DNA from: a virus
Direction: 5' to 3' (one strand)
Length of the DNA: 25,855 bases
Virus record (IMG/VR): IMGVR_UViG_3300008217_000074
Location: 1 to 25,855 of that record
This document shows, piece after piece, positions 15,313-25,119 of this stretch. The notes under the pieces are model-generated. The model worked only from the letters and a program-made list of their open reading frames with translations. It ran no database searches and was not told the DNA's origin. The first letter of the stretch is position 1; every line of letters starts with the position of its first letter. A program made the translations under genes and the position numbers.

Positions 15313-15525
15313 TTATAACAACTTTTTGACATCTTCAAGATATTCTCTTGTTATATTTTCTAAACGATCCATAAAACTTTTAAGAAGTTCAGTATTCTCA
15401 TATTCTGGTAGTCCCAAATCCATAACTTCCCTGAACTTATCGGCGGGAATAGATCTGTAAATCAGTTCTAGATTCCCGTCTTCTTTTAGTTCAACACGAA
15501 CTTCTGAAATAGTAGCTCTCTTCAT
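15313..15525 (-). CDS. Small hypothetical protein, last gene of the replication block
   Basis: A 70-aa acidic, helical protein on the minus strand whose ATG overlaps the RNR stop (ATGA, 15522-15525), so it is probably translated by coupling. An N-terminal beta-like stretch (RATISEVRVELKEDGNLELI) is followed by a Glu/Leu-rich helix. No motif or family recognised. It ends 15 bp from the end of the HesB gene on the other strand. Confidence 0.68.
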   Translation of the reverse strand: MKRATISEVRVELKEDGNLELIYRSIPADKFREVMDLGLPEYENTELLKSFMDRLENITREYLEDVKKLL

Positions 15526-17453
15526 ATATCCACAAGTTCACACACCCCCGCAGTACACGCCAATTCCTGCGAGGCTTTTGTGTTGTCCTCTTTTTCATAA
15601 CTGTTGAATTTTTCCCAGTCTATTTCCTTTGGCATCTGTGATGCAAGCTTTTTATATTCCTGTTTTGTACAATCTTGGTACGGAGCTTGTCGGTAACTGT
15701 GATCCGAGAAAGGCAGGAAGCTGATACCACTTAAACTATCAAAGTTCTCGTAGCACCAACTTCCTACTTCCATCCATTCATGCTCTTTGACACTCACCGT
15801 AATTGAAGGCTTATGTTCACACCAGTGGTCACTGAATAGTTTCCAAAAGTGTAATTGCTCCAGAGCCTTCGTATCAGCCCGACAGATAGCAGTAGACGGT
15901 GATACGAAAGGAAATGAAAATACCACCGTGTTGCTAGGGTTGTTAATATCAGGTTCACTAGGGATACTCTGATCCATCAAGAAACGAGTTAATGGGTCTT
16001 TGATATCCCCACGCACAGTCCTGATATAGAAAGGCGCATGTCGAGCATGAATACCACTGGAAGCGTCTGTAAGCTGACTCACGGTTCCAGATGGTTTGAC
16101 ACAAGTCGTAGCTGTTGACTGGGGGATGCCCAGCAGTTTAGCCCACTTCTTGTTAGTTTCTATTACTACTTCTTTCAAAGAATGTAGAAACGAGGCTTTG
16201 GCAGAAGAACTGTTGTTGCTGTTAAGAAGATTACAATCCATGATTCCTGTAAGAGATACTCCAAGTAATCTTTCTTCTTCTGTATTATTACGCCAACGCG
16301 CCCTTAAGTATTTAAAATCAGTAAGAGTAGATTGCAACGTACCAAGCAGGGAAGCAAGTTCCGCCTTTTTTCGTAATATCTTTGCCGTATCATTCGGGCG
16401 GCAAACAACTTCAGACAGGTTGCAAAATTGATTGGGCCGTAAGATAATCTCGCTACATGGATTGGTTCCAAAACTATCGTGCGGTGTTCTACGACCTATG
16501 CCAGATACTTTCTTCTGTGCTGCAACCCTATTAAAGATGCCTCTCTCTCCTGATTTGCTTTCGTACAGCGCTTGCCATTCTTTCATAAATGCCGATGGAT
16601 CAGGGGTCTCCGTGTACGCAACAGAGTTGTTTGCCAAAGCCCTGTGAGGATGCAAAGCCCACCAATTACCAGACTTAGCAGACCGCATCCTATCATCAGT
16701 AAGATTACTAAGAGAAATAAGAGCGGAGCGCCTAACCCCACCAAAAACCACGACCTCACCAGTTTTACATACGATGTCGTGACACTCAATAGATGAAAGC
16801 TTTCTTCCCGTGGCACCTTGAAATATCCTTATGGTAAATTGAAATAGATCGCTAAGAGGTTCAGGACCAGAAGCTCGACCACCGAAGGTTTTTAATCTTG
16901 ATCCTGCAGGGCGTACTTTTGACAAATCAATCTTGGGGATACGATTGGTATACAAATAACCAACAAGATCCTTAAAGCTTCTAGCCCAGCCTTCTTTGGA
17001 ATCTGCCACACAAATAACGTCTTCTGTTTCTTCAAACGGCTGATTTGGTATGGTCGGTAAATTCCCGATAAAGTTTCGTTCCACAGAGAAGCCTACGCCT
17101 GTACCATTCATAAGAATATAGAGTATTTCATCAAAAGATCTAGGATTATCTATAGGAATGTATGCACAATTATACCCTGCAATGTTTTCACGTTGAAGGG
17201 CTGGACCTGCAGTTGTTAAAGCCCTCATAGACGGCATAACATTCAAGGACAGTATGGCTTTCTTGACGGCTTCCACCTCTGCCAAAGTACTTAGATCAAC
17301 TTCGCAGACCAATTTTATATGGCCCACCAGAAAATCAACGAACCGAGTAACAGTCTCTTCCCAAGTTTCTCGCCGTTGTTTGTCTTCCACCCAACGAGAA
17401 TATCGACTCTTATAGATAAAATTTTGGTAGTCTGTTGGAAGTGAGTTACTCAT
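15522..17453 (-). CDS. Adenosylcobalamin-dependent (class II) ribonucleoside-triphosphate reductase, monomeric type
   Basis: Reduces ribonucleotides to deoxyribonucleotides using B12 radical chemistry, feeding phage DNA synthesis. The N-terminus (LPTDYQNFIYKSRYSRW, then RRETWEETVTRFVDF) and overall plan match monomeric class II enzymes such as Lactobacillus RTPR. FGTNPCSEI (about residue 330) holds the Asn-x-Cys-x-Glu radical site. GTGVGFSVE and the VKPSGTVSQL loop are also present, and the C-terminus ends with a CTAGVC cysteine pair that would re-reduce the active site. At 643 aa it is somewhat shorter than RTPR (about 740). The ATG at 17453 is chosen over 17477 because GGAG lies 10 bases upstream and homology begins just after it. 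It overlaps the DUF3310 stop by 8 bases. No intein seen. Confidence 0.93.
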   Translation of the reverse strand: MSNSLPTDYQNFIYKSRYSRWVEDKQRRETWEETVTRFVDFLVGHIKLVCEVDLSTLAEVEAVKKAILSLNVMPSMRALTTAGPALQRENIAGYNCAYIPIDNPRSFDEILYILMNGTGVGFSVERNFIGNLPTIPNQPFEETEDVICVADSKEGWARSFKDLVGYLYTNRIPKIDLSKVRPAGSRLKTFGGRASGPEPLSDLFQFTIRIFQGATGRKLSSIECHDIVCKTGEVVVFGGVRRSALISLSNLTDDRMRSAKSGNWWALHPHRALANNSVAYTETPDPSAFMKEWQALYESKSGERGIFNRVAAQKKVSGIGRRTPHDSFGTNPCSEIILRPNQFCNLSEVVCRPNDTAKILRKKAELASLLGTLQSTLTDFKYLRARWRNNTEEERLLGVSLTGIMDCNLLNSNNSSSAKASFLHSLKEVVIETNKKWAKLLGIPQSTATTCVKPSGTVSQLTDASSGIHARHAPFYIRTVRGDIKDPLTRFLMDQSIPSEPDINNPSNTVVFSFPFVSPSTAICRADTKALEQLHFWKLFSDHWCEHKPSITVSVKEHEWMEVGSWCYENFDSLSGISFLPFSDHSYRQAPYQDCTKQEYKKLASQMPKEIDWEKFNSYEKEDNTKASQELACTAGVCELVDI

Positions 17454-17700
17454 CGCATTTTGTCTCCAACTCTCCATAGAACGAAACTTTGTCTTTTAAT
17501 TTCATTAAGTACCAGAGAGCTTTATCTAGATCTTCCATAGGTTTTCCCTTATGCTTATATCTAACAAGGTATTTTTGTACATTTCCTTTTAGGTAACCAA
17601 GATATTCTTCTTGTGTCATTGACATCTCGATAATGTCGATGGCCTCAATATCAAGTTTTCGGTAATGCTCTGGGCTATTCACAGGATCATCTTTTTTCAT
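17446..17700 (-). CDS. DUF3310 protein (T7 gp1.7-like, putative nucleotide kinase)
   Basis: An 84-aa protein with the full DUF3310 signature: PVNSPEHYRK, IEAIDIIE, GYLKGNVQKYLVRYKHKG, then MEDLDKALWYL. The family includes T7 gp1.7, reported as a nucleoside monophosphate kinase. Here only the short core is present, so enzyme activity is uncertain. It is directly upstream of the RNR and overlaps its start by 8 bases, which fits a role in nucleotide supply. SD is weak (AGAG). Confidence 0.88.
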   Translation of the reverse strand: MKKDDPVNSPEHYRKLDIEAIDIIEMSMTQEEYLGYLKGNVQKYLVRYKHKGKPMEDLDKALWYLMKLKDKVSFYGELETKCDE

Positions 17701-22113: not shown

Positions 22114-22637
22114 CCCCCTTTTTCCACTTTTTCCACTTTTTCCCATATTTCGGTGTCCACAACATACGAATACGGATGAAGGATATTCTCCATAGACACA
22201 AGACTGATAACGTCTTTGCGTCCACTCCTTTGGTATATTTTATAAACCGCATCCGATGGAGCATCGACAAATAAAGGAACAACCGTAGTTTCGCAGTAAT
22301 CTTTTAGATTCTCACGATCTACAATAACGAAATCGTCAGCCCGCTCAAATACGATTTTGTCAGCCTTTCCGTACAGCCATCCTAGCTTACCTTGCACATT
22401 GTGAAACTCTACCCAAACAAAGGCATCGTTGTAATCTCCATTTCTGTGAAGTTTCTTACGTGATTTCACATCGACTGAGTATTGTTCAGTATCTTTTGTT
22501 AATATCAGGTCAATGTGATCCTTGATATTCATCGACGTTGATGCTGTCTCAACATTGTAGCCCCGTGCTTCAGCAAGATGTTGAAAAAGCCCTTCTGCTT
22601 TAAAGCCGTGTTGTATTTCTAATGTGTATCGGCCCAT
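22110..22637 (-). CDS. PD-(D/E)XK-type endonuclease
   Basis: A 175-aa protein with E15, D43 (KDHIDLIL), and D56/K58 (YSVDVKSRKK), the E...D...DxK arrangement of PD-(D/E)XK nucleases. Aromatic-rich segments (FVWVEFHNVQGKLGWLYG, DKIVFERADDFVIVDRE) follow, as in restriction-like and Hjr-type enzymes. The C-terminus ends in three VEK-like repeats encoded by a 9-base tandem repeat (TTTTTCCAC on the plus strand). It overlaps the end of the polymerase gene by 19 bases and the SSB promoter at its own end. Role could be host DNA breakdown or branch processing. Confidence 0.75.
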   Translation of the reverse strand: MGRYTLEIQHGFKAEGLFQHLAEARGYNVETASTSMNIKDHIDLILTKDTEQYSVDVKSRKKLHRNGDYNDAFVWVEFHNVQGKLGWLYGKADKIVFERADDFVIVDRENLKDYCETTVVPLFVDAPSDAVYKIYQRSGRKDVISLVSMENILHPYSYVVDTEIWEKVEKVEKGG

Positions 22638-24346
22638 GTTTTACCTACCTTTGCATCTGCATTAAGTTCCAGTCGTACGTCCAGGAATTCCCCTGTTCTT
22701 TGCATCATTTTATCAGCACTCTCCATGATTGCTTCTACATCAGTATTTAAAACTTCGTATTGTAATTCATCATGTATAGTATTAACTAAACGAGCGTTTA
22801 ATTTGTTATGCTTTATATAGTGGTGCATATACACACTCCATTGTTTACAAACTATTGCTCCTGCACCTTGCAACAAAGTATTCAAAGCAGCGTGTTGGTG
22901 CCGTATCAGAATGCGTCTTCCATCTAAGCCTTTAACGCTGCCTCGTAAGGCGGCTTGTGCTACACGGTCTATTAATTTTGACAGGGATGGCATATTACAA
23001 AGAAACTTATTTCTCAATCGCGCACCGTCCTTGGACGTTCCGTTAATAATGGACCCAATCTTTTCCGCACCAGCACCATATAAAAATGCATAAATAAATG
23101 TTTTAGCACTTGATCTGTCAGGAAGTCCCGCCGCCTTTTGATTTTCAACGTGAGGATCACCATGTAATACAATGTCAATGTACTTTTTGTCATTCATGTA
23201 ATGAGCTAACATCCTCAATTCAAGCCCCTTCGCATCCATGCCTACTAGGCTGTATTTGTCAGGGTTCTTAACTGTAAAGCACTCTCGACATTCTTTACCG
23301 TAAGGTTTGTCAACAGAAACAACATTAGCCATGTTGGGATCGGCATGTGTCATGCGTCCTGTAACAGCCCCCATTGAAAAAACCCTACCGTGTATACGAT
23401 TGTCAGCGTGACAAGCATCTAACCAACTCTCTACAGTTTTCCAACGAGATTCTAACATCTTCCATTCTGCTAATTTCTTGGCAGACAGGGGAGCATTGTC
23501 AGATATTGTTTCAAGATTTTGTTCGCATATTTTTGGCGATCCTTTAGGTGTAAACACCGTGGGATGCCATCCACAAATATTCAATCGTTCAATGATTTGT
23601 TTTGGACTTGCAAGATTAAAGGGTTCATACTTGAACATAGAAAAAGAACCACCAACAGACTCTTCCGCATCTGGTATGTCCTTTAAACCTACTAACGATA
23701 AGGAGCCGTCCTTTTTTATTTTAGGAGTTACTTCTCTTATAAATTTAGGTTTTGGTTTAAATTCCGTCTGTAGCTCGTATTCTATTTGTTTAGCCTTTTG
23801 GTATGTTTCTGCATATAAATCTTCAGCTTTATTTTTGTCAAGAAAGAAGCCGTACTTAGTTTGCTGACTTATGATATAAGCAATGTTATGTTCTAATCGA
23901 ATAGACTTGTCAGAGAACTCCCGACCTTCTTGTAACAAATGATTATAAACCTTCTCCGTTAAAGAAACATCGCGTATGCAGTACTCAACAGTCTCTTTGT
24001 TAAAAGATTCAAAGTTATTAAAATCTATCTTTTCAAATGCTAATTTTCTACCCCAAGAGGCCAGTGAATGTCCTCCTTCTCTGTTAGGATTAAAAAGGCG
24101 AGACATAATAAAAGTATCAATAACCTGCGGCACTGTAATCTTAGTTTTCCACAGATTATTTAAGATTGGAATATCAAAAGCTATTCCGTTGTGTGTTATA
24201 AATGTATCGTTAATCTTTAATAAGGGTAGTTGTTTTGGTGATGTTGCAATAACAAAAGTATCTGTGTTTAATTCTTTTAATACAACACACCATATGATAG
24301 AAGCATCTAAAGAGTTTGTTTCTATATCTAGAACATATGTTGTCAT
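22619..24346 (-). CDS. Family A (T7-like) DNA polymerase
   Basis: A 575-aa replicative polymerase. The 3'-5' exonuclease is intact: YVLDIETN (D7, E9), THNGIAFDIPIL, and YCIRDVSL (Exo III Asp). Polymerase motif A is VGMDAKGLELRMLAHY (about residue 365), motif B is DRSSAKTFIYAFLYGAG (about 420) and motif C is NTIHDELQYEV (about 525). The residue equivalent to E. coli Phe762 is Tyr (in KTFIYAF), as in T7. ATG 24346 overlaps the upstream stop (TAATG) with GGAAGAG before it; the frame extends to 24376 but without a better signal. It is shorter than T7 gp5 (704 aa), mostly by lacking long thumb and exonuclease insertions. No DnaJ-like insertion is seen. Confidence 0.96.
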   Translation of the reverse strand: MTTYVLDIETNSLDASIIWCVVLKELNTDTFVIATSPKQLPLLKINDTFITHNGIAFDIPILNNLWKTKITVPQVIDTFIMSRLFNPNREGGHSLASWGRKLAFEKIDFNNFESFNKETVEYCIRDVSLTEKVYNHLLQEGREFSDKSIRLEHNIAYIISQQTKYGFFLDKNKAEDLYAETYQKAKQIEYELQTEFKPKPKFIREVTPKIKKDGSLSLVGLKDIPDAEESVGGSFSMFKYEPFNLASPKQIIERLNICGWHPTVFTPKGSPKICEQNLETISDNAPLSAKKLAEWKMLESRWKTVESWLDACHADNRIHGRVFSMGAVTGRMTHADPNMANVVSVDKPYGKECRECFTVKNPDKYSLVGMDAKGLELRMLAHYMNDKKYIDIVLHGDPHVENQKAAGLPDRSSAKTFIYAFLYGAGAEKIGSIINGTSKDGARLRNKFLCNMPSLSKLIDRVAQAALRGSVKGLDGRRILIRHQHAALNTLLQGAGAIVCKQWSVYMHHYIKHNKLNARLVNTIHDELQYEVLNTDVEAIMESADKMMQRTGEFLDVRLELNADAKVGKTWADTH

Positions 24347-24561
24347 TACAACTCTTCCTTCTTCATACGGTTCCAAAGTTCTGTTTTAACATTAACAAAT
24401 TTTTTAAATAAAGGAACATTATTAACTAAATTATTAGGAGCGTACTTTAATCTTGTCCACTTTTTCTTGCTGTAGATAATCTCAATAACTCTCCATCCAG
24501 AACCAAATCTTCTAGACATTTTTGATTCTTGATCACAATTTATAAAGAACTTGTCAGCCAT
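24346..24561 (-). CDS. Small basic hypothetical protein
   Basis: A 71-aa lysine-rich protein (MADKFFINCDQESKMSRRFG, then Trp-Arg-Val-Ile-Glu and a KYAPNNLVNN segment). ATG 24561 overlaps the previous stop by 8 bases and has GAAGA upstream; ATG 24588 is an alternative that adds nine mostly basic residues. Its stop overlaps the polymerase start by one base, so it is likely made with the polymerase. No family recognised. Confidence 0.62.
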   Translation of the reverse strand: MADKFFINCDQESKMSRRFGSGWRVIEIIYSKKKWTRLKYAPNNLVNNVPLFKKFVNVKTELWNRMKKEEL

Positions 24562-24751
24562 CTTTTTGATCTTCTTCACCATATTCATTCTTTAAATAGA
24601 CATCTAGATCAAAAGTTTTTTTATTTAACTTCTTCTTTTTTTTATTCTCTACTCTTCTTTGTCTATACTTAGGGTTACTTAAACTCTTAGCATAGATATT
24701 CCTTTTTCTGTTTCTACGCTCAAGGTCTTGTTGCCGCCGTTGGTAGCTCAT
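24554..24751 (-). CDS. Small basic protein with ArfA-like motif, first gene of the replication block
   Basis: A 65-aa, highly basic protein. The central stretch NPKYRQRRVENKKKKKLNKK resembles the E. coli ArfA core as I remember it (DPLFRQRVEKNKKGKGSY): Asp/Asn-Pro, an aromatic, Arg-Gln-Arg, Val-Glu, then Asn-Lys-Lys. ArfA rescues stalled ribosomes by recruiting RF2. The rest differs and there is a one-residue shift, so this may be an unrelated basic phage protein. It begins about 30 bases after the predicted start of the minus promoter (24788-24816), so it would be the first protein translated from that transcript. Confidence 0.68.
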   Translation of the reverse strand: MSYQRRQQDLERRNRKRNIYAKSLSNPKYRQRRVENKKKKKLNKKTFDLDVYLKNEYGEEDQKDG

Positions 24752-24766
24752 GTGAAAAATTTTCCC

Positions 24767-24795
24767 TTGACACTGTGTCAGTCAGGACTTATAAG
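24767..24795 (+). promoter_or_regulatory. Rightward early promoter of a bidirectional pair
   Basis: Plus strand: TTGACA at 24767-24772, exactly 17 bases, then TATAAG at 24790-24795. The expected start is near 24802, about 48 bases before the first early gene. The -10 forms the right half of the palindrome CTTATAAG, which it shares with the minus promoter. Confidence 0.8.
24768..24780. promoter_or_regulatory. Palindrome TGACACTGTGTCA overlapping the rightward -35 (candidate operator)
   Basis: A perfect 6-bp inverted repeat around a central T covers most of the rightward -35 box and lies just downstream of the leftward start site. A repressor bound here could block the rightward promoter and impede the leftward one. 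The binding protein is unknown; the SH3-like regulator candidate at 24850 is next door. Confidence 0.45.
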
Positions 24796-24816
24796 GACAG
24801 GAATTGACCTTGTCAA
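24788..24816 (-). promoter_or_regulatory. Leftward promoter of a bidirectional pair, for the replication block
   Basis: Minus strand: TTGACA at 24816-24811, exactly 17 bases, then TATAAG at 24793-24788. The expected start is near 24781, about 30 bases before the ATG at 24751. The upstream GGGGGAAAAAGGGG resembles the block before the SSB promoter. Confidence 0.8.
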
Positions 24817-24849: not shown

Positions 24850-25119
24850 ATGAGTATAAATACCTTGTTCATGCACCGCTTTAAAGAGTTTGTCGGTAAT
24901 CGTTTTTTTACTGTTCTATTTTTGAAAAAGGATGGAACTGAAAGAGTGATAACCTGTCGGTTAAATGTCAAGAAGCATTCCAAAGGTGGAGAGCAAACTG
25001 CTAATCCACAACAGTACATGGTTGGATGGGAAACAACCGCAAAGAACTACCGCAACATCAACATTGAAACAATACAGTGGGTTCGTTGTCGCGGAATAGA
25101 GTTGGATTTGGCAGCATAA
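24850..25119 (+). CDS. SH3-like beta-barrel protein (WYL_2/PF10902-like), candidate early regulator
   Basis: An 89-aa protein. NRFFTVLFLKKDGTERVITC, followed by RLNVKKHSKGGE and a YMVGWETTAKNYRNINIETI ending, is the pattern of a small SH3-fold family widespread in phages (WYL_2 as I recall). AAGGA lies 8 bases before ATG 24850. It is the first gene after the rightward promoter, as expected for an early regulator or host-takeover protein. Its molecular role is not established; nucleic acid binding is an inference from fold and position. Confidence 0.8.
   Translation: MSINTLFMHRFKEFVGNRFFTVLFLKKDGTERVITCRLNVKKHSKGGEQTANPQQYMVGWETTAKNYRNINIETIQWVRCRGIELDLAA

Follow-up and report, generated by a model that had tools for sequence, protein, structure and literature searches.

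A conserved 50-bp element with the anatomy of a bidirectional promoter at the divergence point of a phage family

We analysed the whole 25,855-nt stretch of the uncultivated virus record IMGVR_UViG_3300008217_000074 (positions 1 to 25,855; hereafter the window) and found, between its replication arm and its early arm, a 50-bp element in which two inward-facing promoter halves share one -10 region. The arrangement is kept on both sides in the closest relatives. Judged from sequence comparison, the element is very probably a bidirectional sigma-70 promoter that host RNA polymerase uses in one of two mutually exclusive orientations.

An earlier note on this DNA had described TTGACA, a 17-bp spacer, and TATAAG on both strands, with the -10 boxes overlapping in a palindrome and the -35 boxes outside, and direct reading of the sequence bears out each of these points. 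On the plus strand, the rightward (early-arm) promoter consists of a -35 box TTGACA at 24767-24772, a 17-bp spacer at 24773-24789, and a -10 box TATAAG at 24790-24795. On the minus strand, the leftward (replication-arm) promoter has its TTGACA (TGTCAA on the plus strand) at 24811-24816, a 17-bp spacer at 24810-24794, and its own TATAAG at 24788-24793. The palindrome CTTATAAG (24788-24795) is common to the two -10 boxes, and its TATA core at 24790-24793 belongs to both directions. Counting 7 nt past each -10, the predicted +1 falls at 24802 for the rightward transcript (plus strand, leader of ~48 nt) and at 24781 for the leftward transcript (minus strand, leader of ~30 nt), which places the two starts 21 bp apart. 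A generic promoter scan missed the element because it requires a T at -7 and both boxes carry G there. The pattern TTGACA-N17-TATA-N17-TGTCAA had one match in the window at 0 mismatches and no other at up to 3 mismatches, and the shuffled window gave a mean of 0.22 matches at up to 3 mismatches.

The element occupies the space separating two divergent genes, whose ATG codons lie at 24751 (minus strand, 65 aa) and 24850 (plus strand, 89 aa). The first leftward gene (24554-24751, minus strand) heads the DNA-polymerase operon and encodes a small basic protein beginning MSYQRRQQDLERR, to which no function was assigned; the same protein is the first of the replication arm in most of the relatives examined. 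From 24751 down to 15522, the leftward arm encodes DNA polymerase A (22619-24376, minus strand), an SSB-like protein, an exonuclease, a primase-helicase, and a ribonucleotide reductase (RNR; 15522-17477, minus strand), and it meets the structural genes convergently near 15.3-15.5 kb. The RNR is of the adenosylcobalamin-dependent type according to its named relatives and is ~60% identical to the RNRs of alphaproteobacterial phages. The rightward arm begins with an 89-aa protein of PHROG 2267 (24850-25119, plus strand), whose weak match to Pfam WYL_2 lies just under the cut-off (E 1.5e-5). This WYL_2-like protein is a possible candidate for a regulator encoded beside the promoter, and the early arm of one relative, L016, also begins with a protein of PHROG 2267.

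In a 53.7-kb relative (G002), the element was located at 35524-35571. The replication genes of this genome run in one direction (35.7-44.7 kb), and nearly all other called genes, comprising the first early genes, terminase, portal, and structural genes, run the opposite way; two short, isolated ORFs (79 and 94 aa) on the other strand are the exceptions. The element is therefore the sole major strand-divergence point of G002. Two further features were seen elsewhere in the family. A contig of relative L006 carries a phage-integrase domain (L300, G001:C1:46103-46429; PF00589, E 4e-12, in a 792-aa frame) that was not found in the other nine records searched. In L016 (4784-4867), and also in L018 and L021, direct repeats containing CTGACA with a 21-bp period lie ~1.2 kb upstream of the polymerase on the early side and are possible origin iterons or regulator sites.

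Relatives were gathered through DNA-polymerase homologues in viral contigs, and clades were set by the polymerase tree. The closest clade is the best-supported clade around the window (19 rows, with polymerases ~68-100% identical). At the homologous divergence point, two perfect inward TTGACA boxes over a shared -10 were observed in 19/19 members, with spans of 48, 50, or 51 bp. Over 11 representative lineages, the -35 hexamers are invariant (identity of 1.00 on both sides), while identity is 0.32 and 0.43 in the spacers, roughly the background level of ~0.3, and 50% and 37% in the flanks. Eight contigs of this clade, including the window's own, were searched whole, and each of the eight holds exactly one TTGACA-N36..39-TGTCAA pair; the reversed control pattern had no match in the same eight contigs. 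In 9 of 14 lineages, neither -10 box departs from TATAA by more than one base; shuffling the spacers 5000 times gave 0.47 such lineages on average and never more than 4. A poor -10 on one or both sides was found in L006, L016, L019, and L023, and L012 has TATACT with 17 bp on the early side and TATACA with 18 bp on the polymerase side. The exact palindrome CTTATAAG occurs only in this phage; the centres of the other lineages are TATA, GTATAC, or ACTTTAAAGT. The earlier note had proposed checking whether symmetry is kept in related phages; by this comparison, they keep the paired -35 boxes and a TATA-like centre common to both, and the 8-bp palindrome is peculiar to this phage.

The twin perfect TTGACA arrangement recurs in relatives whose polymerases are only 52-54% identical. 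The paired promoters read TTGACA-17-TATAAT and TTGACA-17-TATAGT in L356, L357, and L366, TTGACA-16-TATACT and TTGACA-16-TATACC in L358 and others, and TTGACA-16-TATAAT and TTGACA-17-TATACC in L359. We consider these sites homologous because the gene adjoining them on the polymerase side encodes, in each of those groups, the small basic protein M(S/G)Y..RQKDL.RQ. Two contigs of this group (L089/L090) were independently among the matches listed in a blind pattern scan. Across lineages, the total span varies between 48, 49, 50, and 51 bp, and both spacers stay at 16-18 bp. The 60% and 55% groups retain a recognisable geometry with one -35 degenerate (TTGCAT or TTGACC, TTGCCA or TTGTCA). The 56-57% and 41% groups, as well as parts of the 60% group, yielded no recognisable element, and the twin pair is absent from the cultured pelagiphages HTVC103P, HTVC104P, and HTVC115P, which have a related polymerase, and from Roseobacter phage CRP-143. 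A near-identity search of phage records and an Rfam search at the locus gave no match. The earlier note would have been contradicted by relatives keeping only one -35/-10 pair. Both -35 boxes proved perfect throughout the closest clade and in the 52-54% group, and one of them is weaker in some of the intermediate groups. That both stay perfect down to ~52% polymerase identity marks both directions as selected. Its placing of a bidirectional, shared -10 promoter between the replication arm and the early arm is likewise supported, by the location of the element and by its conservation in relatives.

The host sigma-70 polymerase is the likely user of the element, because the family records searched showed no phage RNA polymerase. 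A search for the single-subunit (T7-type) RNA polymerase domain PF00940 had no match in any of ten such records, of which four are 52-56 kb long; it at first matched no control genome either, and a positive control then found the polymerase in CRP-143. The element has the features of a sigma-70 promoter of Alphaproteobacteria, namely a TTGACA-like -35, a spacing of 16-18 bp, a TATA-like -10, and a missing -7T. In E. coli, the missing -7T would weaken both -10 boxes; since neither has this T, the strength of the promoter is uncertain. In Alphaproteobacteria, -7T is missing in over 60% of promoters, and CarD has been proposed to compensate (PMC8407463). We tentatively infer an alphaproteobacterial host: the nearest RNR relatives listed were all from alphaproteobacterial phages, and phages that infect Pelagibacter, Roseobacter, SAR116, and rhizobia account for most of the nearest relatives of the RNR, polymerase, and primase. 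The polymerase had no match among the bacterial genome contigs searched.

In the mechanism that we propose, host RNA polymerase would bind the 50-bp element in either orientation, with an outer -35 box and the self-complementary TATA core, which would form the upstream part of the -10 both ways. One orientation would start transcription leftward into the replication operon, and the other rightward into the early arm, which in one relative would be followed by the packaging and structural arm. The two orientations should exclude each other at each initiation because they use the same base pairs of the shared -10. The earlier statement that polymerase can occupy only one direction at a time is supported in this sense, as mutual exclusion follows from a geometry with predicted +1 positions so close together. 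Because the shared TATA lies at -12 to -9 of both promoters, a register that does not need -7T, the predicted start sites keep their distance of 21 bp whatever the outer span. The two -35/-10 pairs and their spacers, equal in this phage, would determine the ratio between the arms, and a near-even split is expected. For relatives with -7T on one side only, such as L012, the prediction is a split that favours the early side. We infer firing in both directions, use by the host polymerase, and a competition that matters for expression.

Several other readings of the element were weighed. The TATA symmetry of a -10 makes chance pseudo-promoters easy, and some relatives have a weak -10 or -35 on one side, so it could be argued that only one direction is a real promoter and that the boxes of the other are accidental symmetry or a relic. 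We think this very unlikely, given that both -35 hexamers are invariant in the whole closest clade amid randomised surrounding bases and that each -35 faces the first gene of a conserved arm. It is also improbable that TTGACA...TGTCAA is an inverted-repeat site for a repressor, an activator, or a replication-origin protein, with TGACACTGTGTCA and TTGACcttGTCAA as operators over the -35 boxes. A perfect 13-bp palindrome at 24768-24780, an imperfect one at 24804-24816, and the possible nucleic-acid-binding WYL_2-like protein encoded next door would fit such a site, but the hexamers are the sigma-70 consensus with a TATA-type core at promoter distance, and the small repeats are not found in relatives. 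Moreover, lineages differ by 1-3 bp in the distance from box to box, a variation that a rigid dimer site would not tolerate, whereas each -35 keeps a distance of 16-18 bp from its -10. The small inverted repeats themselves (TGACACTGTGTCA at 24768-24780 and TTGAC-CTT-GTCAA at 24804-24816) are confined to this species, where they lie over the two -35 boxes; they are possibly a species-specific operator or chance. As an operator, TGACACTGTGTCA was rejected: it has one copy only, was matched at up to 2 mismatches in 49 of 100 shuffles, and is absent from relatives.

Chance in an AT-rich intergenic gap has a negligible probability. While 8-bp TATA-containing palindromes fall near the midpoint of ~4-5% of random elements, the pair is conserved at one per genome in many lineages, and inward pairs at spans of 48-51 bp were observed 12 times in 182 kb of family DNA against 0.29 expected, a count in which some records share contigs or recent ancestry. 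Conservation thus refutes a coincidence. The earlier note had further suggested that the arrangement would set the balance of early genes and replication operon and be a possible genetic switch without a repressor. In such a switch, polymerase exclusion alone would lock an infection into either early expression or replication. The two polymerase orientations cannot both be occupied, and with two consensus -35 boxes occupancy could be high. However, no feedback or memory is visible, nor any sign of bistability; exclusion that lacks feedback leaves no memory, every initiation would be a fresh choice, and a lytic cycle needs both arms. In the E. coli bidirectional promoters tested, moreover, competition appears only under strong activation of one side (PMC12825309). 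We therefore do not retain the switch, to which we give little credence, and return to a bidirectional promoter whose orientations exclude each other.

That symmetric promoters are known in bacteria, as the earlier note had stated, is correct: bidirectional promoters with a shared -10 have been reported in E. coli, Salmonella, and other prokaryotes by Warman, Forrest, Grainger, and colleagues (PMC12825309, PMC10268837). The phage element has, like these, a self-complementary -10 shared between strands (TATAAG/TATAAG within CTTATAAG), outer -35 boxes on opposite strands, and mutually exclusive orientations, which here follow from geometry. Its predicted start sites lie within the 7-25 bp range of the bacterial class, and its position between divergent genes, likewise found in relatives, matches the enrichment of that class between divergent chromosomal genes. 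In the common 18-bp register of the bacterial promoters, -11A is paired with -7T; the phage element has G at -7 in both boxes and the 21-bp register instead, and so falls outside this subclass, which leaves the general 7-25 bp definition unaffected. By most tested features, the element thus appears to belong with the Grainger bidirectional promoters. Unlike them, it is a single copy at the divergence point of a genome. Five E. coli examples were tested and are weak, with basal activity too low for competition, which appears only on strong activation of one direction (PMC12825309), whereas the phage element has two full-consensus -35 boxes conserved across a phage family. Such phage elements are good candidates for real polymerase competition.

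Other divergent systems differ more. The Pc and Pr promoters of pLS20 are likewise divergent overlapping sigma-A promoters that choose between two operons, but they differ in strength and depend on RcoLS20 and DNA looping (PMC4207663), and no such regulator is in evidence for the phage element. Pelagiphage HTVC115P is similar in having related replication genes, use of host polymerase, and consensus TTGACA with TATAAT at 16-17 bp. Its promoters, near the end of the record, are nevertheless separate and back to back, with adjacent -35s and no shared -10. Lambda-type phages also have divergent early arms, but with separate promoters under repressor control; no repressor-operator system came to light in this phage. 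The open-access literature searched, with incomplete coverage, contained no phage bidirectional promoter. To our knowledge, the family-wide conservation and the two consensus -35 boxes are new, shared -10 bidirectional promoters being already known in bacteria.

Similar patterns were found in unrelated viral contigs. The longer twin pattern had 17 exact matches at promoter spacing and 3 at control spacing. Among the matches listed for the shorter pattern, 15/74 lay between divergent genes against 2/77 for the control, a comparison that counts some family members and near-duplicates among the matches and rests on crude gene calling. Together, the excess of matches and the divergent placement suggest that other phages may also use symmetric promoters. 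Twin TTGACA boxes with a shared TATA between divergent genes were seen in the unrelated contigs L052, L055, L058, L069, L070, L087, L097/L112, L111, and L118.

This marine phage and dozens of related phage sequences carry one mirror-image promoter, as we read it, for replication versus early genes. Bidirectional promoters have only recently been recognised in bacteria and the tested ones are weak; this family offers a natural set of variants (equal, left-strong, right-strong, 48-51 bp) for how symmetry sets an expression ratio. A wider proposal, tentative and somewhat doubtful, is that a single strong twin-consensus promoter at the divergence point starts the transcription programme of the family, that polymerase competition rather than a repressor fixes and stabilises the ratio of replication to early and structural expression, and that hosts without a need for -7T permit the fully symmetric TATA register. 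Should host polymerase enter mainly here, a two-arm phage genome would be organised by one 50-bp element.
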